A DNA stretch of 64,000 bases, taken from NCBI RefSeq assembly GCF_030380815.1, contig NZ_JAUDUY010000002.1, positions 186,001-250,000 of the forward strand, read 5' to 3'. The position numbers and the translations under genes are program-made. Source of the DNA: Robiginitalea aurantiaca (GTDB taxonomy: Bacteria; Bacteroidota; Bacteroidia; Flavobacteriales; Flavobacteriaceae). This document shows positions 5,961 to 36,070 of the stretch, in pieces; position 1 is the first letter of the stretch; each line of letters starts with the position of its first letter. The notes beneath the pieces were generated by a model that made no database searches, was not told the origin of the DNA, and was given only the letters and a program-made list of their open reading frames with translations.

Positions 5961-6003
5961 CAAAGTAACGATAATCCTGGCTTATAAAGATGACCTGAGT
6001 CAT
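5961..6003 (-). promoter_or_regulatory. Crp/Fnr-type site and -7 element upstream of katG
   Basis: ATGACCTGAGTCAT (5990-6003) is a palindrome of the TGAY-N4-RTCA type. On the minus strand the -7-like TTACTTTG occupies 5968-5961, its centre 32 bp from the palindrome centre, and katG begins at 5927. The same arrangement recurs at 23590, 26861, 30479 and 36057. Confidence 0.6.
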
Positions 6004-6102
6004 TTGTAATACTTATATAAAAATAAACTCCACTTATGACCTAAGCCCATCCTGATTCGCCTGGTCCCTAAACTGGGAAATGGCCACCTAAAGCCACCTG
6101 GG

Positions 6103-6132
6103 TTCGGGTAACAGGATTCGGACGTATATTTG
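6103..6132 (+). promoter_or_regulatory. Promoter of the amine oxidase gene
   Basis: TATATTTG (6125-6132) matches the Bacteroidota -7 consensus TAnnTTTG exactly; TTCG (6103-6106) stands in for the -33 TTTG with an 18-bp gap. The predicted start point is about 35 bp before the ATG at 6175. Confidence 0.55.
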
Positions 6133-6174
6133 AAAGGCTATAAAATCTAAACCTTATACACTATCCCGGTATTC

Positions 6175-7251
6175 ATGGTAAACAATTCATCGGATATTGT
6201 GATTATCGGAGCTGGGCTTACGGGACTGACCCTGGCTTACCTGCTCCGAAGCACAAACCTCAGCGTGCAAATACTGGAAGCCAGGGAACGCCCCGGGGGG
6301 CGGATCCTCACCCAGACTACGCCTTCAGGCGCTACCATAGAAATGGGGGCGACATGGCTGGGTCGAAAACACTCCAGTCTTTCCTCCCTGCTGCGTAAAC
6401 TGAATATTGACATTTTTGAACAAGTCCTCGGGGACCGGGCTATCTATGAACCGATTTCCAGCAGCCCGGCCCAATTGGTCGTTTTGCCGGAGAATTCAGA
6501 CCCGAGTTTCCGAATAAAGGGCGGGACCTCAAAGCTGATTGAAGCATTGTTGGAATCCATCCCAAATAGCCGTATTTCCTATAATCAGGTTGTTCAGAAT
6601 ATAGGGGATGTTGGGGATGGCATTGAGGTAAAATCGGATACAGGTGTTTTCAGGAGCAAAATCGCAGTCTCTACCCTCCCACCCTATCTACTGCATAAAA
6701 CGATATCCATTACTCCGCCCTTTGATCCAGAGCTTATTGAACTCATGGAACAGACCCATACATGGATGGGGGAATCCATTAAATTCGGGCTGGAATACAA
6801 AGAACCTTTCTGGAGGGATGTAAGTACCAGCGGAACGGTCTTTAGCAATGTTGGCCCGGTGACCGAGCTGTATGACCACTCTAACTATGACGACGACCGC
6901 TATGCCCTCAAGGGATTCCTAAACGGTAACTTTTATTCCCTTTCCAAAGATGAACGACGCCTTCGCGTACTGGCCCAATTGCGTAAGTATTACGGAAAGG
7001 CAGTGGATTCTTTTATCAATTATTCCGAAAAGGTTTGGGCGAATGAATCCCATACCTTTGTACCTTATGAGAGGTCTGTTTTTCCTCATCAGAATAACGG
7101 GAACGAGCAATTTCAGAATGCACAGATGAAGGGTAAATTGATTCTGGCGGGGGCGGAGACCTCCGGTTCATTTCCAGGATATATGGACGGAGCCGTCCAG
7201 AGTGCGCGACGGGCATATACCTATATCGTAAATCGAATTGTTGAACGCTGA
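6175..7251 (+). CDS. Flavin-containing amine oxidase
   Basis: 358 aa. The N-terminus carries the dinucleotide-binding Rossmann motif 'IVIIGAGLTGLTLAYLL' and the following 'QILEARERPGGRILTQ' (E and GGR typical of the amine oxidase/protoporphyrinogen oxidase group); the C-terminus has the FAD-closing 'LILAGAETSGSFPGYMDGAVQSARRA'. It is shorter than classical monoamine oxidases (about 450 aa) but both FAD-binding ends are present. No signal peptide is seen. It would oxidise an amine and release peroxide; its place next to katG, on the other strand, may be coincidental. Substrate unknown. Confidence 0.88.
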   Translation: MVNNSSDIVIIGAGLTGLTLAYLLRSTNLSVQILEARERPGGRILTQTTPSGATIEMGATWLGRKHSSLSSLLRKLNIDIFEQVLGDRAIYEPISSSPAQLVVLPENSDPSFRIKGGTSKLIEALLESIPNSRISYNQVVQNIGDVGDGIEVKSDTGVFRSKIAVSTLPPYLLHKTISITPPFDPELIELMEQTHTWMGESIKFGLEYKEPFWRDVSTSGTVFSNVGPVTELYDHSNYDDDRYALKGFLNGNFYSLSKDERRLRVLAQLRKYYGKAVDSFINYSEKVWANESHTFVPYERSVFPHQNNGNEQFQNAQMKGKLILAGAETSGSFPGYMDGAVQSARRAYTYIVNRIVER

Positions 7252-7279
7252 TTTGTATTGATAATACAGCCTGTAAAAA

Positions 7280-8152
7280 ATGAATCTCCAGATGCGATCC
7301 AAGGTTGCTGAGTTTGTAGTTTTTTTCCTAGTCCTCTCGAGTCCTGGCCTCGCCCAGCAGAATCGGGTGTCCCAGCAGAGAATACCCCAACAAGAACTGG
7401 AGGATGATAGGGAACCCTACAAAATACTTCACGCCGAACCCCTTTATATCGACCTCATCCGCGACCTGGGGGCGCGGAAGGGCGAAAAGGAATGGAACAT
7501 AGGCCTTGGACTCAAGGATAATTTGCGCTATGATTCCTATGAGGCGCTTATAGAGTACGAGTGGGCTCCCGTCAACAGATTGGGGCTGGAAGTGGAACTC
7601 CCCTTTACCTTTTACTCGCCTGCCGAAGGCGCCGCCCGCGATTCGGTACCTTCAAACCAGTTGGATGCCTTGCAGGTGGCGATGCAATGGACTTTTCTGG
7701 TAAAGCCGGAAATTGCAACATCAATGGCATTGGGGTATCTCAATGAATTCCAGTTATCCCCTTTCGATTCCTTCGGTAATCCCCTTTTTAAGGGCAATGC
7801 TTATAATCCCTTTCTGGTAGTTGCCAAAAGGTGGGGAAGGCATTTTCACTCTTTAATCTACACCGGTCCTATTTTCGAGCAGGACTATCGCTCCGGAACC
7901 CTTGAAACATCCTATGAAATCAATACCAGTTTCCACTATATGGTGCCTGGAACAATTAATTTTATTGGGGTGGAATTCAATAAGGAAATCGAGCACGGGG
8001 ATTTTGATATGACCATTCGTCCCCAGATGCGCCTCGATATTTCCGAAACCCTGCTCGTAGGGATCGTAGCGGGTATTCCGATAGCCCGCGAAAATGAGCG
8101 CTTCAGTGCCTTTATGCGATTGATCTACGAGCCCATTCACAAAAAAGACTAA
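7280..8152 (+). CDS. Secreted [19 protein letters not shown]-type protein, probably outer membrane
   Basis: 290 aa with a signal peptide (about 1-25, cut after ...GLAQ). The mature protein starts with a conserved-looking block '[20 protein letters not shown]' that I know as the hallmark of a family common in Bacteroidota without a proven function. The rest alternates aromatic and polar residues in short strands separated by turns (for example '[21 protein letters not shown]', '[18 protein letters not shown]', '[24 protein letters not shown]'), as in small outer-membrane beta-barrels. It lies 11 bp ahead of the next secreted protein gene, so both are likely one operon. Confidence 0.8.
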
Positions 8153-8163
8153 ATTCCCAACAT

Positions 8164-9804: not shown

Positions 9805-9939
9805 CACCACCCTACGGATACCGTTTTTGCACTTTGAAACCCTCTTTGCCTCAAAATGCGTTCGGCTCCTGTGGACTTGCGTATTGAAATCGCCGGATCA
9901 CCCCTTCTGGTGGACCCCTAATGAGGCGTGTCCGGCTAA

Positions 9940-9961
9940 GGTGTAAGGGATTTATTACACC
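9940..9961. promoter_or_regulatory. Operator-like inverted repeat upstream of RND efflux operon
   Basis: GGTGTAA (9940-9946) and TTACACC (9955-9961) are perfect 7-bp arms separated by 8 bp. A -7-like TTACTTTA lies at 9982-9989, about 35 bp from the repeat centre, and the adaptor gene starts at 10014. Placement upstream of the -7 suggests an activator or operator site; no regulator gene is adjacent. Confidence 0.45.
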
Positions 9962-10013
9962 GATCAGTAACTTAAATTTTCTTACTTTAACAAAAATTTT
10001 GCAATTGAGGGAA

Positions 10014-11204: not shown

Positions 11205-11206
11205 GT

Positions 11207-20966: not shown

Positions 20967-21893
20967 TTAATTGTATTTTTCAAACCAGTCAAAGCGATCC
21001 CGGATAATTTCATTTTTCTGAGCCTCAATATAATCCAAAAATGCCTGGGCAGTCGGTGACAGTTTCTTGGACTTTTGCCAAATCAGATTCCAGTGTGTGA
21101 TGATGGGCAGGCCTCGCATCGGGATGATTTCCAGATCCTTATTCCCCAATTCGTTTTTTAATCCGATCAGCGGCATTATTGAATATCCCAGGCCAGCCAC
21201 CAGTGCCTGTTTTAAAGCTTCATTGCTGGTAAGTTCCAGTTTTTTTGAATTTTGGATGTCCTTAGAAGCCAGAAAAGTCTCCATGGCGTTTCGGGTTGCC
21301 GAACCCTGCTCCCGGAGAATTAACGGCTCCTCGCGCAGGATGCGGGCTGCAGAGTAGCTTTTTGGCCGGCTCCGTGAGGTCCCCCCCACCAGGAATAGTT
21401 TGTTTTGCATCAATTCCACACGGTTAATTTTCAAGTGATCCGGTAAAACAGATACCATTGCAAAGTCGATGGCATTTTGCTCCAGACTCCGAATTACCTT
21501 AGCCTTGTTGGTTACATCCATCACCAGGTCAACCCCGGGATTTGCATCCATAAAATCGGTCAGGAAATACGGCATGACATATTTGGCCGTTGAAACCGTG
21601 GATATCGTCAACCGACCCGCAATATTACCTTCAAAGGCATGTGTTTTGTAGTTGATCGCCTGGACCTGGTGGATAATCTGCTCTGCGGCAGCTGCAATCT
21701 CTTTTCCGAAATCTGTCACATAAAGCTTCCTCCCGACAACCTCTGTCAGTGGAATGGAAAACTGATCCTGAAAGTTTTTTAACTGAATAGAGACCGCTGG
21801 CTGGGTTAAATGTAATTCTTCAGCCGCCTTTGTAATACTTTGATTTTGAGCTATTTTATAGAATATATTTAGCTGGTTAAGGGTGTAATTCAT
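20967..21893 (-). CDS. LysR-type regulator divergent from the sbtA operon
   Basis: 308 aa. The N-terminal winged helix-turn-helix is clear ('FYKIAQNQSITKAAEELHLTQPAVSIQLKNFQ', about residues 11-42), followed by the linker helix and a periplasmic-binding-protein-like effector domain (about 90-300). LysR proteins of the CbbR/CmpR branch control carbon fixation and bicarbonate uptake, and this gene is divergent from a bicarbonate transporter operon, so a role in sensing carbon status is likely. The 85-bp intergenic region holds a perfect 11-bp inverted repeat that is a good candidate for its binding site. Confidence 0.9.
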   Translation of the reverse strand: MNYTLNQLNIFYKIAQNQSITKAAEELHLTQPAVSIQLKNFQDQFSIPLTEVVGRKLYVTDFGKEIAAAAEQIIHQVQAINYKTHAFEGNIAGRLTISTVSTAKYVMPYFLTDFMDANPGVDLVMDVTNKAKVIRSLEQNAIDFAMVSVLPDHLKINRVELMQNKLFLVGGTSRSRPKSYSAARILREEPLILREQGSATRNAMETFLASKDIQNSKKLELTSNEALKQALVAGLGYSIMPLIGLKNELGNKDLEIIPMRGLPIITHWNLIWQKSKKLSPTAQAFLDYIEAQKNEIIRDRFDWFEKYN

Positions 21894-21904
21894 AAATAAT
21901 ATTA

Positions 21905-21947
21905 ATGTTTTTCATCATAAATATAAATAAAAATGTATGAAAAACAT
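21905..21947. promoter_or_regulatory. 11-bp inverted repeat, probable LysR operator
   Basis: ATGTTTTTCAT (21905-21915) and its perfect reverse complement ATGAAAAACAT (21937-21947) are separated by 21 A+T-rich bases in the region between the lysR gene and the 91-aa gene. LysR tetramers commonly contact two such half-regions. A partial -7-like CAACTTTG follows for the rightward operon. Confidence 0.65.
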
Positions 21948-21978
21948 ATTGCAACTTTGTGCCGTTAAACAGACGTAA

Positions 21979-22254
21979 ATGGCATATTCATACAACTATA
22001 AACACGCCAGCGATTTCAAAACGGAACATCGCAATACAGAAGATGAGATGGCATCCACGACCAGCCCGGTCCTTAGCCGCACCAAACTGGAAATAATTGC
22101 AGGATCAGTCCTTATGGGGGTCCTGCTTCTGGGATCCTGGAGTCTCGACAATCTTTTTATGACCGAACTCCTGGCAGTTACATTCGTATGGGGGATCATC
22201 AGCCTGATCCGGCTTAAATCACAACCTGACAATACTAGCTATGAAAAACGATAA
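21979..22254 (+). CDS. Small membrane protein preceding sbtA
   Basis: 91 aa. A polar N-terminal 35 residues is followed by two hydrophobic segments (about 36-53 and 58-75), so a two-helix membrane protein. No family is recognised. It is the first gene after the LysR operator and overlaps the next gene by 14 bp if that starts at 22241. Its fixed place before sbtA suggests a part in bicarbonate uptake or its control, which is inference only. Confidence 0.7.
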   Translation: MAYSYNYKHASDFKTEHRNTEDEMASTTSPVLSRTKLEIIAGSVLMGVLLLGSWSLDNLFMTELLAVTFVWGIISLIRLKSQPDNTSYEKR

Positions 22255-22558
22255 ATACACCGCAATGCAAGAGACGATCACCGACCAAAAAGTGCAATTA
22301 GTCAAAGGGAGCTTTACCCCTATGGAAGCAACAGACGTTGTACTGTCTCTTCTGGATGAGAAGATCAACTTCCACAAATTGCAGCGTCTGCGCTGGTGCG
22401 AAGGCCATTTTGGAGCAGACACCTCCTATGCGGACCAACGCATTGCAGAGCTCGAAGCAGAAAAAATCATGGCGCGTAAATTCATACGCCAGGCCAGGGA
22501 GATGGGTAAATGCCTCTCCATTAAAGGCACCCTGGAAATTACCATAGATAAAGAGTAA
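22241..22558 (+). CDS. Small helical protein upstream of sbtA
   Basis: 105 aa, or 97 aa if translation begins at the second ATG (22265), which leaves no overlap with the previous gene. It has no signal peptide or membrane segment. The central 'FTPMEATDVVLSLLDEKINFHKLQRLRWCEGHFGADTSYADQRIAELEAEK' region (about 27-77) is predicted helical and charged. It is not a PII-like SbtB by sequence, which is the usual soluble partner of SbtA, but it occupies a comparable place. Function unknown; I recall similar proteins in other flavobacteria. Confidence 0.72.
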   Translation: MKNDKYTAMQETITDQKVQLVKGSFTPMEATDVVLSLLDEKINFHKLQRLRWCEGHFGADTSYADQRIAELEAEKIMARKFIRQAREMGKCLSIKGTLEITIDKE

Positions 22559-22597
22559 GCCCACCTTTACTTAAACCCTTACGCGAAGACTTTCCGT

Positions 22598-23563
22598 ATG
22601 GATTTACATCTGCTCGTCGACAACCTGACGAACCCTGCCCTGCTGTTCTTTTTTCTGGGAATCATTGCGGTCCAGCTCAAAAGCGATCTGGAAATCCCGC
22701 CAAATTCCTCTAAGTTCATCTCCTTATACCTCTTGTTCTCAATCGGTTTTAAGGGGGGGCAGGAATTAGCGCACAGCCCTTATGACCCCGAAATAATCTG
22801 GTCCTTACTTTTCGGAATCTTTTTGGCCGTTTTTGTACCTATCTATACCTATTTCATACTGCGACGGCGTTTTAATGTAGCCAATTCAGGAGCTATAGCC
22901 GCTGCCTATGGTTCGGTCAGTGCGGTCACTTTTGTCACGGCCATATCTTTTCTGGAAATTGAACAGATCAGTTACGGGGGACATATGGTAGCTGTTATGG
23001 CCCTTATGGAAGCGCCTTCTATTGTAGTAGGTGTCTTGCTCGTCGCCATTTTCGACAAAAAGAACGGTTTTGCGCTGCCGCTTCCCAAAGTTTTCCGGCA
23101 TTCCGTAACCAATGGGAGCGTTCTGCTCATCCTTGGGAGCCTGGTGATTGGCTTCCTTGCTAGTGACCACCAGGCAGAGGGGATTAAGCCTTTTACGACC
23201 GATATTTTCAAAGGTTTCCTGGCTGTTTTTCTGCTCGACATGGGGATCACCAGTGGTGCGAAGCTCTCCGCCCTGGTGAAAAAAGGATGGTTCGCCCTTG
23301 TGTTTGCCATCCTGATCCCCCTGATCAACGGGTGCATTACCGCTGTGGTCACTGCTTCGTTTATAACAGAACCCGGAAATCGATTCCTGTTTGCGATCCT
23401 GGCTGCCAGTGCCTCTTACATCGCCGTCCCAGCCGCCATGCGACTGGCGGTCCCCAAGGCGAACCCGAGCCTCTACCTTCCAATGGCTCTGGCCCTGACA
23501 TTCCCCTTCAATATCACCCTGGGAATGCCTATTTACCTGTATCTGATTCAGACCTTTAGTTAA
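22598..23563 (+). CDS. sbtA: Sodium-dependent bicarbonate transporter SbtA
   Basis: 321 aa with about ten hydrophobic segments in two inverted halves. Family landmarks: 'NPALLFFFLGIIAVQLKSDLEIP', 'YLLFSIGFKGGQEL' and 'AAAYGSVSAVTFVTA' in the first half, and 'GITSGAKLS' and 'AILAASASYIAVPAAMRLAVPKANPSLYLP' in the second. SbtA imports bicarbonate with sodium; in heterotrophic marine flavobacteria it probably feeds anaplerotic carboxylation. It ends a three-gene unit divergent from a LysR regulator. The length is close to bacterial SbtA homologues. Confidence 0.92.
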   Translation: MDLHLLVDNLTNPALLFFFLGIIAVQLKSDLEIPPNSSKFISLYLLFSIGFKGGQELAHSPYDPEIIWSLLFGIFLAVFVPIYTYFILRRRFNVANSGAIAAAYGSVSAVTFVTAISFLEIEQISYGGHMVAVMALMEAPSIVVGVLLVAIFDKKNGFALPLPKVFRHSVTNGSVLLILGSLVIGFLASDHQAEGIKPFTTDIFKGFLAVFLLDMGITSGAKLSALVKKGWFALVFAILIPLINGCITAVVTASFITEPGNRFLFAILAASASYIAVPAAMRLAVPKANPSLYLPMALALTFPFNITLGMPIYLYLIQTFS

Positions 23564-23589: not shown

Positions 23590-23633
23590 ATGACGAATAT
23601 CATATTTTAAAAGGTTAAATGGAGGTAAATTGT
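23590..23633 (+). promoter_or_regulatory. Crp/Fnr-type site and -7 element upstream of tonB-like gene
   Basis: ATGACGAATATCAT (23590-23603), extendable to ATATGA...TCATAT, followed by the -7-like TAAATTGT (23626-23633) with 33 bp between centres. The downstream gene starts at 23671. Confidence 0.55.
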
Positions 23634-23670: not shown

Positions 23671-24393
23671 ATGAAAGTTAAAAAGAATCCTAAAGCCGAT
23701 CTGAATCGTAATAGCGGGCTCTATTTTGTGATGGGCCTGGCTATCGTGCTCTTTGTGACTTGGAGAGCACTTGAGTACAAAACCTTTGACAGTGTTCAGG
23801 AAGAAATTGTCATGTTGGTAGACGCGGAATCTCTCGATGAGGATGTCCCTCAAACAGAAATGATTCGTACGACCCCTCCCCCTCCCCCTCCTGCTGCCCC
23901 CGAAGTCATCGAGGTCATTGAGGATACTGAAGAAGTGGAGGAAACCATTATAGAAAGTACAGAGATAAGTCAGGATACTGAAATTGCGAGCGTTAATCTG
24001 GATGCTTCCGATATTGATGTCGAAGAAGAAGAGGAAGATATCGAGGTACCCTTTGCAGTAATTGAAGAAATCCCTGTATTCCCCGGATGTGAAGGCCTTA
24101 CAACCGCCGATCAGCGGGAGTGTTTTAACAAAAAAATGCAGGAACACGTCCAGAAGAATTTCATGTATCCCGAAACAGCTGAGGAACTTGGAATTGAAGG
24201 CAGGGTATTTGTACAATTTGTCATCGACCGCGATGGCAAGATTACCAAAATTAGAAGCCGCGGTCCAGACCCTTCCCTGGAAAAAGAAGCACAGCGTATT
24301 ATAGCCGCTTTGCCACAAATGATTCCAGGAAGACAACGAAACAGAAATGTGAGCGTACCCTATAGCATCCCAATTAATTTTAAATTGATGTAA
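23671..24393 (+). CDS. TonB family energy transducer
   Basis: 240 aa. An N-terminal membrane anchor (about 18-36) follows a basic start; the periplasmic stretch has a proline run (T-T-P-P-P-P-P-P-A-A-P, about 68-78), an acidic linker, and the C-terminal TonB domain (about 150-240) with 'VQKNFMYPETAEELGIEGRVFVQFVIDRDGKI' and 'AALPQMIPGRQRNRNVSVPYSIPINF'. It would pass proton-motive energy to an outer-membrane transporter or act in envelope function; no receptor or ExbBD genes are adjacent. It is followed at 24 bp by cardiolipin synthase and preceded by a Crp/Fnr-like site. Confidence 0.92.
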   Translation: MKVKKNPKADLNRNSGLYFVMGLAIVLFVTWRALEYKTFDSVQEEIVMLVDAESLDEDVPQTEMIRTTPPPPPPAAPEVIEVIEDTEEVEETIIESTEISQDTEIASVNLDASDIDVEEEEEDIEVPFAVIEEIPVFPGCEGLTTADQRECFNKKMQEHVQKNFMYPETAEELGIEGRVFVQFVIDRDGKITKIRSRGPDPSLEKEAQRIIAALPQMIPGRQRNRNVSVPYSIPINFKLM

Positions 24394-24417
24394 CTTGTCG
24401 GTAAAACCCGATACCAC

Positions 24418-25818
24418 GTGTGGACTGTAATAGGAATCGCACTTTATATACTTATCGCAATAGCGATAGTTATTAGCCTCCTACTGAATGGAATCCGACC
24501 CTCGAAGACATTGGCTTGGCTGTTAGCCATCTTCACCATCCCAGTAGGAGGCATTCTGTTGTATTTAATGCTGGGCCGCAACAAGCGAAAACAGCAGCGA
24601 TACTCCAGAAAACCCAGGGCACCTGAAATTACTCCTGCCGTCCCTGCCCAGGACACAGCCCCCCTGTCCAAACGCGAGGGCCAAATTTCGAAACTTATAG
24701 CTGGCAATACGGGCTTCCCCCTTACTACCGATAATGAGGTAGAACTCCTGAAAGACGGCGAAAAAACCTTCAAACGGATTTTCGAAGCCCTCAGGGAAGC
24801 GCGGGAAACCATACACGTTCAATACTACATCTTTGAGGAAGGGGAACTTGCCGATCGCCTTCTGGACCTCTTTGTTCAGAAAGAAGCCGAAGGGGTTGAA
24901 GTCCGACTCATCTACGACAGCATTGGCAGTCTGTCACTCAGCCGTGGATACCTCCAAAAATTAAGGGAGGCCGGTATTGAGGTTTACAACTTTTTACCGT
25001 ACCGCTTCGGGCGCTTCCTCACTTCCCTTAATTATCGAAACCATAGGAAAATTATTGTTGTAGACGGGGAAACGGCGTTTACGGGGGGCATAAATATTTC
25101 GGACAAATACCTCAAAGGAGACGAAAACCTGGGGATTTGGCACGATATGCACCTGATGATCCGCGGAAGTGCTGCACATCACCTCAACACAGTATTTATC
25201 AATGACTGGGAACTGGTAAGCGGAAACCAGCTTGAAATAAAGCCCCCTGAAATGTCCCAATTCCCTGGGAACGTCCGGATGCAAATTCTGGCCAGCGGGC
25301 CCAACGATGACTTTTCCCTAATGGAAAAACTGTATTTTACCCTAATAAACAGTGCGCGAAAATACGTCTATATCACCAATCCGTATATCATCCCCAACCA
25401 CGCCCTGATGACCGCCCTTCACACGGCCGCCCTCAGCGGTGTGGACGTAAGGTTGCTTTTATCCTCAAAATCAGATAGTATCGTGGTGAATCTTTGTGTT
25501 CGCTCTTATTTTCAACGGTTCCTGCGGTCCGGTATTCGTATTTTTCTATATCCTGAAGGTTTTCTTCACAGTAAAATAATCACCGTGGATGACCGGGTGT
25601 GCACGATAGGCACTGCGAATGTGGATGACCGAAGTTTTCAGCACAACTACGAGGTCAATGCCGTGGTCTTCGAAAAAACGACGGCGGTAGAACTCCGGGA
25701 ATACTTCGAAAGGGATAGTGAAAAAAGCATCGAACTGAACTTTGAAGATTTTAGCACCAGACCCCTGACACATCGATTGGCGGAAGGTGCAGCAAGGGTT
25801 ATAAGCCCCCTGCTTTAA
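24418..25818 (+). CDS. cls: Cardiolipin synthase (phospholipase D family)
   Basis: 466 aa starting with GTG. Two N-terminal hydrophobic segments (about 3-23 and 30-51) precede two HKD phospholipase D motifs: 'HRKIIVVDGETAFTGGINI' (about 214-232) and 'HSKIITVDDRVCTIGTANVDDRSF' (about 382-405). This is the standard layout of bacterial Cls, which joins two phosphatidylglycerols to cardiolipin at the inner membrane. It follows the TonB-like gene in the same direction and probably shares its promoter, linking membrane lipid change to the putative stress regulon. It converges with the lipoprotein gene 6 bp away. Confidence 0.95.
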   Translation: MWTVIGIALYILIAIAIVISLLLNGIRPSKTLAWLLAIFTIPVGGILLYLMLGRNKRKQQRYSRKPRAPEITPAVPAQDTAPLSKREGQISKLIAGNTGFPLTTDNEVELLKDGEKTFKRIFEALREARETIHVQYYIFEEGELADRLLDLFVQKEAEGVEVRLIYDSIGSLSLSRGYLQKLREAGIEVYNFLPYRFGRFLTSLNYRNHRKIIVVDGETAFTGGINISDKYLKGDENLGIWHDMHLMIRGSAAHHLNTVFINDWELVSGNQLEIKPPEMSQFPGNVRMQILASGPNDDFSLMEKLYFTLINSARKYVYITNPYIIPNHALMTALHTAALSGVDVRLLLSSKSDSIVVNLCVRSYFQRFLRSGIRIFLYPEGFLHSKIITVDDRVCTIGTANVDDRSFQHNYEVNAVVFEKTTAVELREYFERDSEKSIELNFEDFSTRPLTHRLAEGAARVISPLL

Positions 25819-26521: not shown

Positions 26522-26809
26522 TTATAAAATACTCTCCAGAAATTCATAAAGCCCAGATTTCCACAGGTTGCATTTTTTTTCGAAAACTTCGAGTTCCCCT
26601 TTACTGCCCGAATCCAGCCGGCGCAGTTCCTCCTCGAGTTCTCCCGCCTGATCAGCGTATTCCATGAGGCGTTCATACAGGTTGGGCCTCTGTTTCTGAT
26701 ATACAGGGGCCTTTACAAGGAAATAGAGGAACTGCAGATCCCGCTCCATGGCAAGGAGTCGGTCCCGGTTGCCCTCGGATTCCAGAGGTGATGCGCCTTT
26801 TGTATTCAT
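26522..26809 (-). CDS. Small cytoplasmic helical protein, 95 aa
   Basis: No signal or membrane segment. The sequence is almost entirely helical and charged ('RDRLLAMERDLQFLYFLVKAPVYQKQ', 'ERLMEYADQAGELEEELRRLDSG'), with no motif I recognise. A Crp/Fnr-like palindrome and -7-like element lie just upstream (26831-26874), and it precedes the lipoprotein gene by 31 bp, so both are probably transcribed together. Function unknown. Confidence 0.65.
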   Translation of the reverse strand: MNTKGASPLESEGNRDRLLAMERDLQFLYFLVKAPVYQKQRPNLYERLMEYADQAGELEEELRRLDSGSKGELEVFEKKCNLWKSGLYEFLESIL

Positions 26810-26830: not shown

Positions 26831-26874
26831 TTAAGTTACGATTTTTCAACTGCTCTGGATATGACTATCATCAG
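26831..26874 (-). promoter_or_regulatory. Crp/Fnr-type site and -7 element upstream of the 95-aa gene
   Basis: ATGACTATCATCAG (26861-26874) is one base from the symmetric ATGAC-N4-RTCAT form. On the minus strand the -7-like TAACTTAA (26838-26831) has its centre 33 bp away; the gene starts at 26809. The site is nine bases past the 3' end of the upstream hydrolase gene. Confidence 0.5.
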
Positions 26875-26882
26875 CAAAAAAA

Positions 26883-29098: not shown

Positions 29099-29123
29099 AG
29101 ATCAGTGCCCTTATCATTCCATG

Positions 29124-29528
29124 TTAGGACTCAAAATATCCGAGGATAAGAGCTTTAACCTGATTTGGGGTCATGCTATCTGCTGTCAGGACATCGCGTA
29201 CCTTCATTCCGATATCCGGATGGGCTTCATCCAGGCGTTTTTTAAAGTCTGCTTTGGTGCCCGCCGGCCCATATAATACAATCGCTTCTGCATCTTTTAA
29301 TTCACGGGCAAGCGTGTCGTAATACTCCCGGAGCTGGTGATTTTCCCGCTCCGTATACCGGCTGTCGTGTACGACCTGTTGAGGACCCCATCGGGTCTTG
29401 GACCGGGACCCCCCCTTGGGGTTAAAGAATTCAAGATCTGAAGCCAGGTTTTTCATCTCAGTCTTGCCCTCGGAAACGGAAACCACGTGGGCCTCCTTTT
29501 TATCCATCCATACGCCTATCTGTTTCAT
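29124..29528 (-). CDS. Release-factor-domain-like (baeRF/host-attachment family) small protein
   Basis: 134 aa. The opening 'MKQIGVWMDKKEAHVVSVSEG' and the later 'DAEAIVLYGPAGTKADFKKRLDEAHPDI' resemble domains of archaeal/eukaryotic-type release factor eRF1 found in bacterial baeRF and host-attachment proteins (L7Ae-like fold: strand, GP-x-x-K, helix). The missing GGQ motif means it is not a release factor by itself. In Bacteroidota such genes often lie beside usp and RNA-hydrolase genes, as here, where it is the second gene after usp. Function unknown; a ribosome- or translation-linked stress role is plausible. Confidence 0.6.
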   Translation of the reverse strand: MKQIGVWMDKKEAHVVSVSEGKTEMKNLASDLEFFNPKGGSRSKTRWGPQQVVHDSRYTERENHQLREYYDTLARELKDAEAIVLYGPAGTKADFKKRLDEAHPDIGMKVRDVLTADSMTPNQVKALILGYFES

Positions 29529-29570
29529 CGATATAATTTTTTGAAGTTATTTTTGGTATAAATCAGTTAC

Positions 29571-30434
29571 TCATGTCTGTGGCACCCCTGATGGCGGGAT
29601 AACCATAAAAGGGATTCGGGTATAAAACCCAATCTGGTCAATCAATGGGGTAACCAGGAGGTTTTCCAGGAACGTGTGCTCATTTCGAACTAGAATCAAT
29701 AATTGAACAGGGGTTTGCTCTGCAAACCGGTTAATGGCCCCAACGATATCCCCTTCTCCCGTTTCGTGCATTTCCCATGTATAGGAAGTCAGAAGCTCGG
29801 TGAGCTGTGCCTTGCCCCGCTCTCGTTCAGGTTTGGCATCTGCCTGTGTATACGCGTGTAACACATGCAGAAATACCCCGGGTTTCCGCAAAAGAAATTT
29901 TAAGGCCTCCAGGGGCAACTTTTCGTAATCCGGTTTAAAATCGGTTGGAAACAAGAGGTGTTCCATAGAGCTTACTTCGGCTCCCTCCGGGACGACGAGC
30001 ACCGGACAACTCGCTTTGTGTAAAACCTGAACGGCATGGGTGCCGAAGAGGACCTCGCGAGCCCCCGTGGCTCCCTGTGTGCCCATCACAATCAAATCCA
30101 GTACTTCTTTTTTGCCCATTTCATTGAGTTCCTCCGCAAGTGAATTAAAGGCCGCATGGGTCATAAACTCATGTTTTTTATCCGCATACTGAAGCAGCAT
30201 TTTTTTATGTTTCTCCAGCTTTTTAAGCACGCGCTCCTGGTAGAAATCGCCAAGGCCGATCTGACCAGGGCTGTGCAGCAAATACTCCGCCCTGTAGAAT
30301 GCGGGGGTATAGGTATGTGTGAGGTAGAAGGTGCACTCCTCCCCGGCAAATAATTCCATAGCAAAACGCGTCGCCTTTAGGGCGTTTTCAGAAAAATCAG
30401 TTGGAATGGCAATTCGAAACCCCATAGTAGTCAT
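29571..30434 (-). CDS. Universal stress protein, tandem UspA domains
   Basis: 287 aa. The first UspA domain (about 1-150) carries the ATP-binding signature 'GTQGATGAREVLFGTHAVQVLHKASCPVLVVP' (G-x2-G-x9-G-T/S pattern); the second (about 155-280) is degenerate and lacks the full G-x2-G-x9-G signature. Such proteins bind ATP and are induced by starvation and stress. A start at ATG 30434 or at ATG 30425 (MGFRIAIPTDFS) fits equally. It is the first gene of an operon with the baeRF-like, ATP-cone nuclease and beta-CASP genes, and its promoter faces that of thioredoxin across a single Crp/Fnr-like site. Confidence 0.92.
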   Translation of the reverse strand: MTTMGFRIAIPTDFSENALKATRFAMELFAGEECTFYLTHTYTPAFYRAEYLLHSPGQIGLGDFYQERVLKKLEKHKKMLLQYADKKHEFMTHAAFNSLAEELNEMGKKEVLDLIVMGTQGATGAREVLFGTHAVQVLHKASCPVLVVPEGAEVSSMEHLLFPTDFKPDYEKLPLEALKFLLRKPGVFLHVLHAYTQADAKPERERGKAQLTELLTSYTWEMHETGEGDIVGAINRFAEQTPVQLLILVRNEHTFLENLLVTPLIDQIGFYTRIPFMVIPPSGVPQT

Positions 30435-30448
30435 TTTAGTTATCGTCC

Positions 30449-30523
30449 TAAATTTACAAAAAGCATCGGGGCACCTATATGACTTACATCATTGTTTAAG
30501 CTCTTTGGGAATGTCTACTTTTA
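30449..30523. promoter_or_regulatory. Divergent usp/trx promoter pair around one Crp/Fnr-type site
   Basis: The palindrome ATGACTTACATCAT (30479-30492) lies between TAAATTTA (30449-30456, for usp on the minus strand) and TACTTTTA (30516-30523, for trx on the plus strand). The distances from the palindrome centre to the two -7 centres are 33 and 34 bp, almost symmetric, so one activator could drive both operons. Confidence 0.65.
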
Positions 30524-30541
30524 TACTGATATTAAAGTATT

Positions 30542-30847
30542 ATGAAAGGTTCTTTCAACAAAATCATTCAATCCGAGACACCGGTACTTATCGATTTCTA
30601 TGCAGACTGGTGCGCACCCTGCAAAATGCTGACTCCCATCCTGAAGGATGTAAAGCAGGAATTGGGGGATCGCATCAAAATTGTGAAGATCGATGTGGAC
30701 AGCAATTCAAATATCGCAGGGCGGTATCAGATTCGGGGCGTACCAACCATGATTCTGTTCAAAAGGGGGGAAATACGATGGAGAAAATCCGGGGTTTTGC
30801 CTAAAGATGCATTGCTTCAGGAACTGCGACCCCTGCTCGAATCCTGA
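30542..30847 (+). CDS. trxA: Thioredoxin
   Basis: 101 aa, the usual size. The active site W-C-A-P-C-K is in 'FYADWCAPCKMLTPIL' and the cis-proline loop in 'RGVPTMILFKRGE'. No signal peptide, so cytoplasmic. It begins 50 bp after a Crp/Fnr-like site and heads an apparent operon of HlyD-like lipoprotein, ABC permease and ATPase (40, -1 and 9 bp spacing). This context, and its divergence from usp, suggest a stress-induced thioredoxin rather than the housekeeping copy. Confidence 0.97.
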   Translation: MKGSFNKIIQSETPVLIDFYADWCAPCKMLTPILKDVKQELGDRIKIVKIDVDSNSNIAGRYQIRGVPTMILFKRGEIRWRKSGVLPKDALLQELRPLLES

Positions 30848-30887
30848 TTACCCGTACAGATTACGCTTTTTTTAAGTTGATAATCCT

Positions 30888-32006
30888 ATGAAATCAACAC
30901 AACTGAGGTTCGTATCGCCATCCGCAAAAGGGCTTACACTTTTGTTATTCCTGCTCTGTCTCACCATATCCTGCGGGCCTGACCAGGAGTCCATCCTGCC
31001 GGAAAAACAAAACATTACCTCATCGGTCTATGCCTCGGTAACTATCTGGCCGGACAGCATGTACCGAGTCTACGCTTCGGTAAGTGGTATTTTGGAACAA
31101 AACCTCGTCGAAGAAGGAAATTTGATCAGTACAGGGGCTCCCCTACTCCATATCACCGATGCCACACCCCGATTGACTTCGGAAAATGCGCGCTTGCAAA
31201 TGGAGCTGGCAGAACAATACTACACCGGGGCTTCCACCCCCTTAAAGGACCTGGAGGTGCGTATTCAAACCGCGGAACTCACCTTTCGGGACGATTCGGT
31301 CAATTTCAGGCGACAGGAAAAACTGTGGTCCCAAAATATCGGGTCCCTCTCTACCTATGAAAACCGCAAATTGGCCTACGAACGTTCCCGAAACCAGCTA
31401 CAGCAATTGCGCAGTGAATACAACAGGCTTCAAAAAGAACTGAAAACTCAGATGATCCAGGCGCAGAACACCTACAGGTCCAGTTTGGTGAGTGCGGCGG
31501 ACTATACGGTACGCAGTACCATAGACGGTAAAGTGTACGCCCTTTACAAAGAGGCGGGGGAGGGAGTCCTCCCGAATGAACCCCTGGCACTCATTGGCAG
31601 CCCGGATGTTTTCCTGGCCGAACTCCTTGTGGATGAAGTTGACATTGTGCAAATCAAAACCGGGCAGCTGGCCCTTATTAGTCTGGATGCGTACCCCAGC
31701 ACCATTTTTGAAACCCGCATAGTTAAGATTTATCCCCAGAAGGATGAACGCTCACAGACCTTTAAGGTGGAAGCCCAGTTTGAAAGTGCCCCGGAAATCC
31801 TGTATCCCGGCCTTTCCGGGGAGGCCAATATTGTCATCGGACAAAGGAAGGGAGCGCTTACCATACCCAAAAGCTTTTTAATTGGAGAGGACAGCGTGCG
31901 CACTACCCGGGGAATACGCAAAGTGGTTACTGGCCTCGAAACCCTGGATCGCATTGAAATTATAGAGGGAATTGACGTCTCTACGGAACTCTTAAGACCC
32001 CGGTAA
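30888..32006 (+). CDS. HlyD/MacA-type periplasmic adaptor lipoprotein
   Basis: 372 aa. Lipoprotein leader ends 'CLTISC' (lipobox T-I-S-C). A lipoyl half-motif 'VYASVSGILEQNLVEEGNLISTGAPLLHI' is followed by a coiled-coil hairpin (about 95-190), the second half 'VRSTIDGKVYALYKEAGEGVLPNEPLALIG' and the barrel domain. Such adaptors link inner-membrane ABC pumps to the outer membrane. It precedes the FtsX/MacB-like permease by a 1-bp TAATG overlap, so the three genes 31-34 kb form an export or lipoprotein-trafficking system of the MacAB kind. Confidence 0.9.
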   Translation: MKSTQLRFVSPSAKGLTLLLFLLCLTISCGPDQESILPEKQNITSSVYASVTIWPDSMYRVYASVSGILEQNLVEEGNLISTGAPLLHITDATPRLTSENARLQMELAEQYYTGASTPLKDLEVRIQTAELTFRDDSVNFRRQEKLWSQNIGSLSTYENRKLAYERSRNQLQQLRSEYNRLQKELKTQMIQAQNTYRSSLVSAADYTVRSTIDGKVYALYKEAGEGVLPNEPLALIGSPDVFLAELLVDEVDIVQIKTGQLALISLDAYPSTIFETRIVKIYPQKDERSQTFKVEAQFESAPEILYPGLSGEANIVIGQRKGALTIPKSFLIGEDSVRTTRGIRKVVTGLETLDRIEIIEGIDVSTELLRPR

Positions 32007-33268
32007 TGAAGCAATGGCCGCTCATCCTGAGTATTGCACGGACGCATCTGCTGACCAAGATGAAATCCACTGTGACCGCAGCCCTGGGGGTTACCTTTGG
32101 AATTGGGGCATACATCACTCTGGTCAGTTTTATGACGGGACTCAATACCATGCTGGACGATTTGATCCTCAATCAAACCCCGCATATCCATTTGTATAAC
32201 GAGGTACAGCCCAGCGAGGTACAGCCGGTAAACCAGTATGCCCTTTTTGGTGATGACCTTTTGCAGATTCGCTCGGTTAAACCCAAAAAAGGACAACTGA
32301 AAATACACAATGCCCAGCCCATCCTGAAAAACCTCAAATCCAGCAAGGGCGTGGTCGGGGCCACCCCTCAGTTACGGGCACAAATCTTTTACCTGTCAGG
32401 CGCCCAAAACCTGGGGGGCGTTTTGGTAGGAATGGATATTCTAGAGGAGGAGCGGATTTCAAACCTCGGGGATTATATCATAGCCGGGAGCCCCAGTGCC
32501 CTTTCGAATTCCGACAACGGGATCATCCTGGGCATTGGTCTTTTAGAGAAAATGTCATTGCGGATGGGGGACCGTGTTCAGGTAAGCACCCCGGAAGGCA
32601 CTGTATTCCCTCTGCGGATTGTAGGGATTTATCAAAGTGGCCTGGCCGATATCGACAATACACAGAGCCTTGTCAATCTTGAGACTGCCCAACGCATTAT
32701 GGGGGAAGCCTCCAACTATATTACCGACATTCACATCAAACTTTCCGATATCCGCCAGGCCCCCGCAATGGCCAGGCAGCTGCAGGCCCAGTACAAGGTT
32801 AAAGCGCGGGATATTCAGGATGCCAACGCCCAGTTTGAAACCGGAACCACCATTCGTAATCTGATCACCTATGCCGTATCCATTACCCTGCTGATTGTCG
32901 CAGGATTTGGGATCTATAACATCCTCAATATGCTGATCTATGAAAAAATGAATGATATCGCCATCCTTAAAGCTACCGGTTTTTCCGGGTTGGACGTACA
33001 GAATATTTTTATGAGCCAGGCACTTTTAATCGGGCTGATCGGCGGGTTATCAGGTCTGATTCTGGGCTTTGGCCTCAGCCATCTGATCGATTCCCTGCCC
33101 TTTGAAACCGAAGCTTTGCCCACGATCGATACTTTTCCGGTGAATCACAATCCCTTGTATTACGTGATCGGGATTACCTTTGCCCTGCTTTCGACCTTTG
33201 TTGCGGGATACCTGCCTTCAGCGAAGGCTAAAAAAATCGATCCCGTACAGATCATTCGCGGAAATTAA
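32006..33268 (+). CDS. ABC transporter permease, MacB/LolE-FtsX family
   Basis: 420 aa. One N-terminal membrane segment (about 20-40) is followed by a large periplasmic region (about 45-280) and three C-terminal membrane segments (about 285-310, 335-360, 385-410), the topology of the MacB/LolCE group. The ending 'GYLPSAKAKKIDPVQIIRGN' is typical of this family. It works with the ATPase encoded 9 bp downstream and the adaptor overlapping upstream. Substrate unknown. Confidence 0.92.
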   Translation: MKQWPLILSIARTHLLTKMKSTVTAALGVTFGIGAYITLVSFMTGLNTMLDDLILNQTPHIHLYNEVQPSEVQPVNQYALFGDDLLQIRSVKPKKGQLKIHNAQPILKNLKSSKGVVGATPQLRAQIFYLSGAQNLGGVLVGMDILEEERISNLGDYIIAGSPSALSNSDNGIILGIGLLEKMSLRMGDRVQVSTPEGTVFPLRIVGIYQSGLADIDNTQSLVNLETAQRIMGEASNYITDIHIKLSDIRQAPAMARQLQAQYKVKARDIQDANAQFETGTTIRNLITYAVSITLLIVAGFGIYNILNMLIYEKMNDIAILKATGFSGLDVQNIFMSQALLIGLIGGLSGLILGFGLSHLIDSLPFETEALPTIDTFPVNHNPLYYVIGITFALLSTFVAGYLPSAKAKKIDPVQIIRGN

Positions 33269-33277
33269 AACCAGGTT

Positions 33278-33958
33278 ATGAGCGCAGTTCTGGAGGCCAG
33301 AAATATCGACAAATTCTTTCGGAAGCCCGTGGAATACCACGTGCTGAAAGATATTAGTTTTGTGCTTCCCGAGGGGCAGTTTACCAGTATCATAGGCAAA
33401 TCGGGGTCGGGAAAATCTACCCTGCTCTATATTCTCTCCACCATGGATACGGACTATGAAGGATCCCTTTACCTTAAGGGTGATCTCATTACAGGAAGTT
33501 CCTATAAGCATCTCGCCAGTCTCAGAAATGAGTATATCGGTTTCGTCTTTCAGTTCCATTACCTCTTGCTGGAATTTACAGTTTTGGATAACGTTATGTT
33601 GCCCGCTTTGAAACTCGGCGTAAAATCGGTCGAAGAAATTCGTTACGACGCCATGGAAAAACTGCGGATGCTCCATATCGATAAACTGGCCCTAAAAAGG
33701 GCGTCCCGGATTTCAGGGGGTGAAAAACAGCGGGTAGCTATTGCGCGTGCACTGATCAATAATCCCGCTATCCTAATGGGGGACGAGCCCACAGGAAATC
33801 TGGACAGTTATAATTCGGAAAATGTATTTCAGATTTTTAAACAGCTTAGGGAAGAAGAAGGCCTTTCCCTTTTGGTCGTAACCCATGACCAGGATTTTGC
33901 CCACAGAACTGACCGCATTCTGGAAATGGAAGACGGCCGGATTATCAACGGGAATTAA
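33278..33958 (+). CDS. ABC transporter ATP-binding protein, MacB/LolD type
   Basis: 226 aa. Walker A is 'GKSGSGKST' (about 38-46), the signature is 'RISGGEKQR', Walker B 'AILMGDEPTGNLD' and the His switch 'LLVVTHDQ'. It energises the preceding permease. It ends the trx-led operon and converges with the cbpM gene 10 bp away. Confidence 0.95.
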   Translation: MSAVLEARNIDKFFRKPVEYHVLKDISFVLPEGQFTSIIGKSGSGKSTLLYILSTMDTDYEGSLYLKGDLITGSSYKHLASLRNEYIGFVFQFHYLLLEFTVLDNVMLPALKLGVKSVEEIRYDAMEKLRMLHIDKLALKRASRISGGEKQRVAIARALINNPAILMGDEPTGNLDSYNSENVFQIFKQLREEEGLSLLVVTHDQDFAHRTDRILEMEDGRIINGN

Positions 33959-33968
33959 GTCCTGTGGA

Positions 33969-34259
33969 TTACTCCCATCGATTGAGGCGACGACGCAATT
34001 CAAGCACCTCTTCCTGAAGCACCTCCATCCTGTTGAGCAGGTGGTCAACTGCCAGGAGTCCCTGCGGACTGATCTCCAAATCCCTGTGAAGTCGTACGAG
34101 TCTTTCCAACCTGCGAAGGTCCCTTTTTGGGATCACACGTTCGGATTCCACCTCCCGAATATCGATGAGTTCTATTTCGTGAAGTGAAACCAAAAAAGAC
34201 TCTTCCAGGGCGTGACCCTTGCAAAAATCCGTGATGCGTATATATTTTTTCACATTCAT
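33969..34259 (-). CDS. cbpM: Chaperone modulator CbpM
   Basis: 96 aa from ATG 34259 (an upstream in-frame start adds 11 residues with no family character and would run back into the DnaJ gene). The opening 'KYIRITDFCKGHALEESFLVSLHEIELI' is typical of CbpM/MerR-like HTH proteins that bind the J-domain of CbpA and modulate it; the rest is a helical coiled coil ('HLLNRMEVLQEEVLELRRRLNR'). It follows the DnaJ-like gene by 4 bp, which supports the assignment. Confidence 0.88.
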   Translation of the reverse strand: MNVKKYIRITDFCKGHALEESFLVSLHEIELIDIREVESERVIPKRDLRRLERLVRLHRDLEISPQGLLAVDHLLNRMEVLQEEVLELRRRLNRWE

Positions 34260-34263
34260 AAAG

Positions 34264-35160
34264 TTAGAGATTTGTGGCCTTAAGCGATTCAAAAAGCCGT
34301 TTCTGTTCCTCTGTGAGGTGCCTGGGCAGGGTGACCTCGTAGGTAATAAACAAGTTCCCGAACTCCCCTTCCTTTTTATATTTTGGGAATCCCTTGCCCG
34401 TGAGCTTCACCCGGGTATTGTTCTGGCTAAGCGGCTTTACTTTTAACTTAGCCTTGCCATCGAAGGTGTCCACCGTAAGATCGCCCCCAAGAACGGCTGT
34501 GGTTAGCGGCACAGCAACCGATTTGTACAGATTGGATCCGTCCCTCCGAAATCCGGTTGTATTCCGAATCTCAAAAGTAAGGTAGAGATCTCCTTTGGGG
34601 CCTCCGTTGATCCCGGGGCCTCCATATCCCTTTATCCGAATCGTTTGTCCATCTTCTATCCCGGCGGGAATCGTTATCCGGATATTCCGATCGCCGACCG
34701 TAAGGGTTCGTTTATGGGTTTTAAATGCATCTCTGAGATCGAGTTGAAGGTTGGCATTGTAGTCCTGCCCTTTGAACCCTCTTCCCCTGCCCTGTCCGCT
34801 TCGGCCGGAGGTGAACCCTCCAAACATCGATTCAAAGAAATCAGAAAAGTCCCCTTCCTGCCCGGTGGAATAGGTGTACTGACCGGCATCCCCTGAAGGG
34901 CCCCTGGATTTCCTGGCCTTTTCGAATTCTTCGGCGTGCATCCAGTCTTTCCCATACTGGTCGTATTTTTTCCGCTTCTCCGGGTCGCTGAGGACTTCGT
35001 GCGCCTCATTGGCCTGTTTGAATTTCAGTTCTGCATTCGAATCGTTCGGGTTCAGGTCCGGGTGGTACTTCCGGGCCATCTTCCGGTAGGCAGCCTTTAT
35101 TTCCTTGGCCGTTGCAGTGGAAGGTATTCCCAGTACGTTGTAGTAATCGATAAAATCCAT
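34264..35160 (-). CDS. cbpA: Curved DNA-binding/DnaJ-type co-chaperone CbpA
   Basis: 298 aa. The J-domain (about 4-70) has the Hsp70-activating H-P-D at 33-35; there is a Gly/Phe-rich linker (about 75-130), then the C-terminal substrate-binding domains (about 135-290) and no zinc-finger cysteines, so it is the type II DnaJ/CbpA form. It would assist DnaK in folding during stress. It lies between the TauE-like gene (67 bp) and cbpM (4 bp), all in one direction. Confidence 0.95.
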   Translation of the reverse strand: MDFIDYYNVLGIPSTATAKEIKAAYRKMARKYHPDLNPNDSNAELKFKQANEAHEVLSDPEKRKKYDQYGKDWMHAEEFEKARKSRGPSGDAGQYTYSTGQEGDFSDFFESMFGGFTSGRSGQGRGRGFKGQDYNANLQLDLRDAFKTHKRTLTVGDRNIRITIPAGIEDGQTIRIKGYGGPGINGGPKGDLYLTFEIRNTTGFRRDGSNLYKSVAVPLTTAVLGGDLTVDTFDGKAKLKVKPLSQNNTRVKLTGKGFPKYKKEGEFGNLFITYEVTLPRHLTEEQKRLFESLKATNL

Positions 35161-35227
35161 AAATGCGTATCGCAGTTAGTTTTAAAAAGTCTGAATCGGG
35201 GCTGTCTGCCACCTGCTGTTCCCAGTT

Positions 35228-36010
35228 TCAACTTCCCAGTGCAACCTCCCCTGCTGACCCACCGGGGTCTATTTGAAGGCCGAACAGATGGACTACCAAG
35301 GTTATCAAACCAATGAACAACAATAAAAGTAGTACGTTTTGCTGAAACTTCTTCTGGGAAATCTTCTCAAGGATGCGCTTTCCTGCATAGGTGCCCACTA
35401 GGCTGACAACAATCAGGATAGGGATCAGGTATAGATCGTGCTGGTGTACATACCCGTTATAAAAATAGACCACGGACCGGCTGAGGTCTATGCCCAGGTC
35501 AATGGTAGCAGAAGTGGCTATAAAAATGTCTTTTTTAAGTCTGAAGGCAGCCATGGTAGCGCCACGGATAGCACCTCCGGTACCCAGCAAACCGGCCATC
35601 AGGCCTGAAACCACTCCCCCGGTTATGGCGTTTTTTTTGGTTGCCCGGATCCTGAGGGTCTTATGGACCAGGAACAACACACTAAAAGCAATCAGGAAAA
35701 TCCCCAGTGAAAGCCCAAGATACCTGGGATTCGCAAACCTGCTCAGAACCCCCCCGAGAACCACGAAGACCACGGCGGGTATCCCCAGATACAATAGCAA
35801 ATGCCTGTCGATACCCTTTCTGAAGAACCCGATCTTGGTCACGTTGCTGGACAGATGAAAAAGGGCCGTAACCCCTAACACGCTCTGGAAATCCATAAAA
35901 TAGCTGGCGACGGGAACAAAATAAACCGAGGATCCGAATCCTCCAACGGTCCCCAATATCTCCGCAACCAAAGCCAGGATGATAAACCATGGCAGGTACC
36001 GCATTAACAT
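35228..36010 (-). CDS. TauE/SafE family membrane permease
   Basis: 260 aa with about eight membrane segments. The family landmarks are two repeated glycine-rich halves: 'ILALVAEILGTVGGFGSSVYFVPVAS' near the start and 'AITGGVVSGLMAGLLGTGGAIRGA' in the middle. TauE/SafE proteins export or import sulfur-containing acids such as sulfite or sulfoacetate, and many have other substrates. It begins an apparent operon with cbpA and cbpM and is preceded by a Crp/Fnr-like site; its role in that operon is unknown. Confidence 0.9.
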   Translation of the reverse strand: MLMRYLPWFIILALVAEILGTVGGFGSSVYFVPVASYFMDFQSVLGVTALFHLSSNVTKIGFFRKGIDRHLLLYLGIPAVVFVVLGGVLSRFANPRYLGLSLGIFLIAFSVLFLVHKTLRIRATKKNAITGGVVSGLMAGLLGTGGAIRGATMAAFRLKKDIFIATSATIDLGIDLSRSVVYFYNGYVHQHDLYLIPILIVVSLVGTYAGKRILEKISQKKFQQNVLLLLLFIGLITLVVHLFGLQIDPGGSAGEVALGS

Positions 36011-36026
36011 GCTTTTTTCTTTGATT

Positions 36027-36070
36027 TAAAGGTACCTCCACCCGTATTAATGCCAACTGATTTTGGTCAG
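36027..36070 (-). promoter_or_regulatory. Crp/Fnr-type site and -7 element upstream of tauE/cbpA/cbpM
   Basis: CTGATTTTGGTCAG (36057-36070) is a palindrome fitting TGAY-N4-RTCA. On the minus strand TACCTTTA (36034-36027) has its centre exactly 33 bp away. The permease gene starts at 36010. Confidence 0.5.

Follow-up and report, generated by a model that had tools for sequence, protein, structure and literature searches.

Several systems are known in which genes for life at low oxygen are controlled by proteins of the Crp/Fnr superfamily. In FNR, the ligands of the [4Fe-4S] cluster are three N-terminal cysteines and one beta-roll cysteine, the recognition helix carries ExxSR and the site is TTGAT-N4-ATCAA. 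The genes for hemN, the cbb3 oxidase and hydrogenase are low-oxygen genes, hemN and cbb3 being classic FNR targets, and the Anr and FixK2 systems exert control over cbb3 and usp (universal stress protein) genes. When the operator lies over the -33 region, at a fixed distance from a -7 element, the arrangement is that of class II activation, as it is known from Crp/Fnr systems. A response to low oxygen or nitric oxide (NO) that is driven by kinases and rich in Usp and CBS genes is also found in the DosR dormancy regulon of mycobacteria, although its regulator is of the NarL type and its site is another one. Anr boxes are reported at hemN in Pseudomonas (PMC6588701), and the NmpRSTU regulon of Myxococcus xanthus includes Usp, a CBS protein, cbb3 with a P-type ATPase, and HemN, although its regulator is NtrC-like and not of the Crp/Fnr type (PMC11841059). 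For the Flavobacteriaceae, no low-oxygen activator with its operator is described among the matches listed in the open-access literature, subscription journals not being covered. The present work concerns a stretch of 64,000 nucleotides of Robiginitalea aurantiaca (positions 186,001 to 250,000 of contig NZ_JAUDUY010000002.1, our G000:C22:186001-250000), hereafter called the window, within a genome of 3.46 Mb. The original prediction, made from the letters of this window, was that several of its promoters belong to a common Crp/Fnr-type regulon. This reading is supported by comparisons of genic with intergenic sites and of related genomes, and the window, in our judgement, quite likely holds a portion of an FNR-like regulon found widely among the Flavobacteriaceae, in which activation would be of class II and two regulators probably read one operator. 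One or two FNR-like switch proteins thus probably turn on stress and low-oxygen genes jointly, both here and in many relatives.

The motif and its fixed geometry are real. The palindrome ATGAY-N4-RTCAT is present at 41 places in the genome; over the central spacings from 1 to 14 the counts sum to 215, and as the other 13 spacings account for 174/13 = 13.4 each, the N4 form is about three times as frequent as expected from them. The reversed pattern occurs only 5 times genome-wide; however, as it contains stop-like triplets, the excess is judged on the comparison of spacings. Based on the calls of a simple open reading frame (ORF) caller, 20 of the 41 palindromes are in ORFs, 3 are in short, edge or doubtful ORFs and 18 are intergenic, 3 of these 18 being in the window; the site at 30479 is counted as intergenic, the ORF that the caller draws across the usp-trx gap being spurious. 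Four of the 41 lie in a HypB-like gene that follows hypA (C11:382832-382947; L072:2745-3662), where a coding repeat produces them as false palindromes. When the flanks of 18 sites outside the window are considered (36 sides, inclusive of the sites in short or edge ORFs at L007, L014 and L032:10268), matches to the -7 element TAnnTTTR with at least 5 of its 6 specified bases peak at a single offset, with the first T 29 bases away from the centre of the palindrome. There, 7 of the 36 sides match (background 1.3%) and the mean score is 3.06 (background 1.84), whereas the genic palindromes, represented by 17 of the 20 sites with one of the four C11 repeat copies used, have a -7 element on 1 of 34 sides. 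The concern attached to the original prediction, that the motif might be equally frequent inside genes, is answered by this difference. The final base of the -7 element is frequently A (the TACTTTTA type) instead of G. The composite element TGAY-N4-RTCA-N23-TAnnTTTR, with one mismatch or fewer, matches the genome 61 times, 25 of these exactly; the reversed pattern does so 15 times. Further, in 80 related fnr loci the expected offset has an exact -7 element 227 times, whereas none of 44 other offsets has one more than 11 times. The proposal that this geometry fits a class II site agrees with these results, as the operator lies at one fixed distance from the -10/-7 element and hence near -41.5 relative to the inferred start sites. 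Of separate interest is the exact palindrome at L024:12751, which adjoins a ribosome hibernation (S30AE) gene and whose -7-like TAAATTTG is at offset 21 instead of 29.

In the window, all five palindromes of the original prediction are present, viz. at 5990-6003, 23590-23603, 26861-26874, 30479-30492 and 36057-36070. Their described form, ATGAC-N4-RTCAT or close, is appropriate for those at 5990, 23590 and 30479, which match ATGAY-N4-RTCAT exactly, and for that at 26861, which has one mismatch; it is less so for that at 36057-36070, CTGAT-N4-GTCAG, with two outer mismatches. Counted alone, the window's palindromes with no more than one mismatch do not exceed chance (11 against 7.4 expected; a count of 11 is reached in 14 of 100 shuffles). 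Palindromes with a -7 element at the fixed spacing and up to two mismatches are above it, with 8 found against 2.68 expected and 2 of 100 shuffles reaching 8. Two of these eight composites, at 43063 and 44037, are additional to those described earlier, and another is the opposite side of the 23590 palindrome. Of the six promoters for which a -7 element had been claimed, three have an exact TAnnTTTR, at 29 bases from the palindrome centre for usp and tauE and at 30 for trx; the elements of katG and of the 95-amino-acid gene retain 5 of the 6 specified bases, and that of tonB, with 4 of 6, is degenerate.

The conservation of these sites was assessed in 8 syntenic congeners, a ninth (G103) being left out as its island is not syntenic; tauE/cbpA is covered in 7 of them, since the contig of G105 ends before tauE. 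With up to two mismatches allowed, 0.24 to 0.67 matches are expected by chance per congener locus. The congener genes were identified by Pfam for usp (7/8), TonB (7/8) and the four tauE/cbpA cases and by translation for the eighth, and the lipoprotein unit was assigned by its place, its ORF length and one translation. Most of the sites are conserved in these congeners, as the original prediction requires. The palindrome at 30479-30492 is common to the divergent promoters of usp and trx, and the almost symmetric sharing suggested for it is seen in the two offsets of 29 and 30. On the reverse strand, the usp composite (30449-30491, with its -7 element TAAATTTA at 30449-30456) has no mismatches and is exact in 8/8 congeners; it precedes the universal stress protein gene (29571-30434, PF00582), the first of a leftward unit. 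On the forward strand, the trx -7 element TACTTTTA (30516-30523), an exact TAnnTTTR placed one base further from the palindrome, precedes the thioredoxin gene (30542-30847) and, downstream of it, genes for an HlyD-type fusion protein, a MacB/FtsX permease and an ABC ATPase (30888-33958). In three congeners (L264:8398-8440, L265:8335-8377 and L267:8585-8627), variant TGAG-N4-RTCA composites are seen within the trx-ABC unit, before the gene in the HlyD position. The tonB/cls composite (23591-23633, forward strand), with the -7 element TAAATTGT and two mismatches, is at the same spacing in 8/8 congeners, where its -7 element is always TAnnTT with 1-2 changes in the last two bases; it precedes genes for a TonB_C protein and a PLD-type, cardiolipin-synthase-like protein (23671-25818, forward strand). 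The composite of the 95-amino-acid gene/lipoprotein unit (26831-26873, reverse strand, one mismatch) lies before an ORF without a Pfam match (26522-26809, reverse strand) and is found, with up to two mismatches, in 7/8 congeners, G108 lacking it. The tauE/cbpA composite (36027-36069, reverse strand; core TGACCAAAATCAG, -7 element TACCTTTA), which has no mismatches, precedes a TauE/SafE family gene (35228-36010, reverse strand) and then a DnaJ/CbpA-like gene (34264-35160). Its counterparts are present in 4/7 congeners (G107, G106, G100 and G104), three upstream of TauE genes and one upstream of a DnaJ gene, and were not found in G108, G102 and G101. The composite at 5960-6002 (reverse strand, one mismatch), before the katG-like peroxidase gene (3678-5927, reverse strand, PF00141), is a look-alike that is not conserved, and this gene is a doubtful member of the regulon. 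Upstream of katG in the eight congeners other than the nearest one, G108, the sequence is different; four of them have a CTAT-N7-CCAT-like or closely similar element, with the corresponding region of the window being 5928-6060, and our guess is that this is perhaps an OxyR-type site. Elsewhere in the window (20967-23563), genes for a LysR protein, a protein of 105 amino acids and an Sbt_1 bicarbonate transporter form a possible carbon-uptake unit.

Outside the window, exact composites are located 9 to 56 bases upstream of the starts of hemN, ccoS-ccoN and the nickel-iron (NiFe) hydrogenase small subunit gene. Exact composites are also present upstream of three further usp genes and of genes for an MlaE permease, a CDP-alcohol phosphatidyltransferase and a pyridoxamine-oxidase-like protein, and others precede genes whose products are unknown or exported; seven of these products have no Pfam family or weak or repeat matches only. 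The assignments of hemN (TIGR00538), ccoS (TIGR00847), the hydrogenase small subunit (TIGR00391) and hypA (TIGR00100) are by profile matches above the cut-off, and the COX1 subunit and Usp are matched as well. Sites with one mismatch are upstream of hypA and of genes for a heavy-metal P-type ATPase, a CBS protein and a DoxX-like protein, among others; the ATPase is in a CcoI-like position and scores below the NCBIfam cut-offs for metal subfamilies. One contig of 108 kb (C50) has 12 of the 61 composites with up to one mismatch, adjoining usp, mlaE, phosphatidyltransferase and SPFH genes. The gene functions named in the original prediction, viz. oxidative and protein stress, membrane lipids and export, need revision in one respect, as the presence of hemN, cco, hydrogenase and usp among the wider targets favours low oxygen over oxidative stress as the theme. 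Judged by these predicted sites, the target set is that of an FNR-like low-oxygen regulon.

The absence of a Crp/Fnr gene from the window was correctly noted earlier, as the three matches of the genome to HTH_Crp_2 (PF13545) are on other contigs. The first is an Fnr-like protein (L013:755-1444) with the cNMP_binding and HTH_Crp domains characteristic of the Crp/Fnr superfamily, whose gene is between the CcoI-like P-type ATPase gene and a usp gene and which is 88% identical to its homologue in Robiginitalea marina and 95% to one in an uncultured Bacteroidetes. In 100 fnr loci, where a site was counted with up to one -7 mismatch, a spacing within one base and a distance of at most 150 bases from the gene start, such a site precedes ccoS in 92/93, usp in 80/81, the ccoI-like gene in 95/97 and fnr itself in 58/100. 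The second is a receiver-cNMP-HTH_Crp fusion on contig C50 (L032:5797-10174), encoded after a gene for a PAS/GAF histidine kinase of 1101 amino acids, the promoter of which carries an exact composite. Pfam recognizes the HTH_Crp_2 domain of the fusion, and its cNMP part is seen only when it is aligned with Fnr-like proteins. The D52 residue of its receiver is invariant in 12/12 rows and the adjoining gene has, in this genome, HisKA and HATPase_c domains; with a conserved aspartate and a kinase partner, the fusion is by its predicted features a response regulator. The recognition helices of these two proteins are alike (GTATESCIR in the Fnr-like protein and GTATETVIR in the fusion), and the third HTH_Crp_2 protein has SSRVVISR. 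Members of the fusion family are present in 42 of 100 Flavobacteriaceae genera by a search with an alignment (all at least 422 bits), which replaced a search with a single protein that was too strict (18/100). Of the 42 fusion-bearing genomes, each from a different genus, at least 17 have the fusion gene no more than 5 kb away from the trx orthologue, and in 3 it is at most that far from fnr; the island seen in the window is thus elsewhere often the home of the fusion.

A comparison of the Fnr-like protein with FNR reveals both likeness and difference. Structures of an FNR type regulator (9qlt, 5cvr and 5e44) are presumably from Aliivibrio fischeri. The Fnr-like protein gives a near full-length profile match to these, and in the alignment with 9qlt its C5, C8 and C107 match cysteines, i.e. 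the CxxC pair and the cysteine of the beta-roll; the predicted targeting of hemN and respiration genes and the predicted class II spacing would be further likenesses to FNR as known from E. coli. However, the third N-terminal cysteine of FNR is replaced by N14, residue 54 is a cysteine where 9qlt has the alanine of 'YAIR', and the three-plus-one arrangement of ligands is not reproduced. Each of the four cysteines (C5, C8, C54 and C107) is conserved without exception in 80 rows (our protein and 79 others from the 80 fnr loci, one locus yielding no protein), in 21 diverse rows (our protein and 20 others) and overall in our protein and 99 homologues; no further cysteine is invariant, two other positions being cysteine in 9 and 14 of the 21 rows. 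This pattern suggests an iron-sulphur cluster with one moved ligand, the predicted structure (mean predicted local distance difference test score, pLDDT, 62.4) being too poor for measuring cysteine distances. Differences from FNR are also seen in the recognition helix (ExxIR in 80/80 and 21/21 rows, not ExxSR), in the site (ATGAY-N4-RTCAT, not TTGAT-N4-ATCAA) and in the -7 element, which is here of the Bacteroidota type. As two defining features of FNR are lacking, the protein is not classified as FNR, and its best-scoring solved chain, 2gau, is another Crp/Fnr protein. In its predicted working the system resembles FNR, Anr or FixK2, yet it departs from the standard ligand set of FNR. Low-oxygen control by a Crp/Fnr protein would be shared with Anr of Pseudomonas and FixLJ-FixK2 of Bradyrhizobium; however, the kinase of FixLJ-FixK2 works by way of FixJ, a regulator of its own, whereas in the present system receiver and Crp body form one fusion protein and the Fnr-like protein appears to share its operator with this fusion.

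The distribution of the composite in other genomes is informative in regard to its readers. It is present in 91/100 Flavobacteriaceae genera, with 1338 matches against 49 for the reversed pattern. When 118 genomes of the phylum are compared, it is found in every one of the 11 that belong to the family (at least 5 each), two genomes of the same order have 11 each, sixteen of the same class have 0 to 12 and the remaining 89 have 0 to 4. When the 100 genera are sorted by regulator, those with neither (21 genomes) have a median of 1 site and 47 in total, 29 of these in one genome, G048; those with Fnr only (35 genomes, E<=1e-60) have a median of 11, a mean of 12.0 and a minimum of 2; those with the fusion only (20 genomes) have a median of 14, a mean of 15.8 and a range of 6 to 34; and those with both (22 genomes) have a median of 23.5, a mean of 25.2 and a minimum of 9, in a comparison that does not correct for genome size, the genomes with neither regulator often being small. 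Five matches weaker than 1e-60 (G020, G043, G036, G051 and G075) were not counted as Fnr, and G020 and G043, with partial Fnr matches and 3 sites, were left out as ambiguous. In these genomes, the number of predicted sites goes with the presence of the two regulators. Some observations count against the reading of a common regulon under these two proteins. The sorting by regulator and the count of 80 loci ignore the kinship of the genomes, and G048 has its 29 composites with neither regulator found, in an assembly 82% complete and 6% contaminated. Further, some exact intergenic palindromes, e.g. at L024:12751 and both of those in L030, are without a -7 element at the fixed distance, one exact composite (L052) is within an ORF, and the candidate katG had to be rejected as a conserved member, its palindrome being confined to R. 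aurantiaca and the nearest congener (2/10 genomes; 1/9 congeners).

The mechanism that we propose is that a dimer of a Crp/Fnr-superfamily activator would bind ATGAY-N4-RTCAT, with its centre some 41 bp ahead of the inferred start at the position of the -33 box, and would recruit RNA polymerase to the TAnnTTTR element, i.e. activate and not repress. Two such regulators would probably read the operator, viz. (a) the Fnr-like protein, presumed to sense oxygen through its four cysteines, and (b) the receiver-Crp response regulator encoded after the histidine kinase, and at low oxygen or poor respiration the genes for cbb3 oxidase, hemN, hydrogenase, Usp, thioredoxin/export and membrane lipids would come on together. 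In a specific form of this proposal, which we put forward tentatively, the one operator serves two switches, viz. an Fnr-type sensor with a moved ligand (C5, C8, C54 and C107) and a Crp fusion under the control of phosphorylation, so that the oxygen and kinase signals add. It is about equally conceivable that the two divide the work, with usp, trx and tonB mainly under the kinase-controlled fusion and the Fnr-like protein handling cbb3 and hemN, and partial cross-talk through the shared operator. The nearness of the fusion gene to the trx orthologue in at least 17/42 genomes and the 12/61 composites on its own contig, beside usp, mlaE, phosphatidyltransferase and SPFH genes, are consistent with such a division; however, the usp gene that adjoins fnr has the same site in 80/81 loci.

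A signal other than oxygen, viz. NO, redox state, a nucleotide or nutrients as for HcpR-, DNR- or CRP-like proteins, is rather unlikely. The missing third N-terminal cysteine and the general stress genes among the targets are compatible with it, and PMC8510549 offers the guess that CRP/FNR homologues of Flavobacteriales are MalR-like carbon sensors. However, the invariance of the four cysteines in our protein and 99 homologues, and the low-oxygen character of hemN, cbb3 and hydrogenase, argue for oxygen as the probable signal. In the same direction, oxygen limitation leads to a rise of cbb3 oxidase and haem synthesis genes in Flavobacterium psychrophilum, according to a report in whose main text the word 'Crp' is absent (PMC9723704). 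Still less probable is that the Fnr-like protein is the sole reader and that the fusion has other targets and co-occurs incidentally. The place of fnr within the cbb3 cluster with sites around it, and the standing of hemN and cbb3 as classic FNR targets, would accord with this, but the 20 genera with the fusion and without Fnr have 6 to 34 composites each, and 20/21 loci around fusion genes contain a composite with up to one -7 mismatch. A reading of the palindromes as products of chance or structure, with coincidental -7 matches, which the near-chance palindrome count of the window might suggest, is statistically excluded by the held-out spacing test, the reversed-pattern controls and the congener footprints, and we regard it as extremely improbable.

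The Flavobacteriaceae are abundant in the sea. At least one of the two regulators is present in 77 of the 100 genera sampled, and for these the site and its spacing would provide a ready predictor of target genes. In addition, the Fnr variant found in these bacteria would test how far the ligands of an oxygen-sensor cluster can move.

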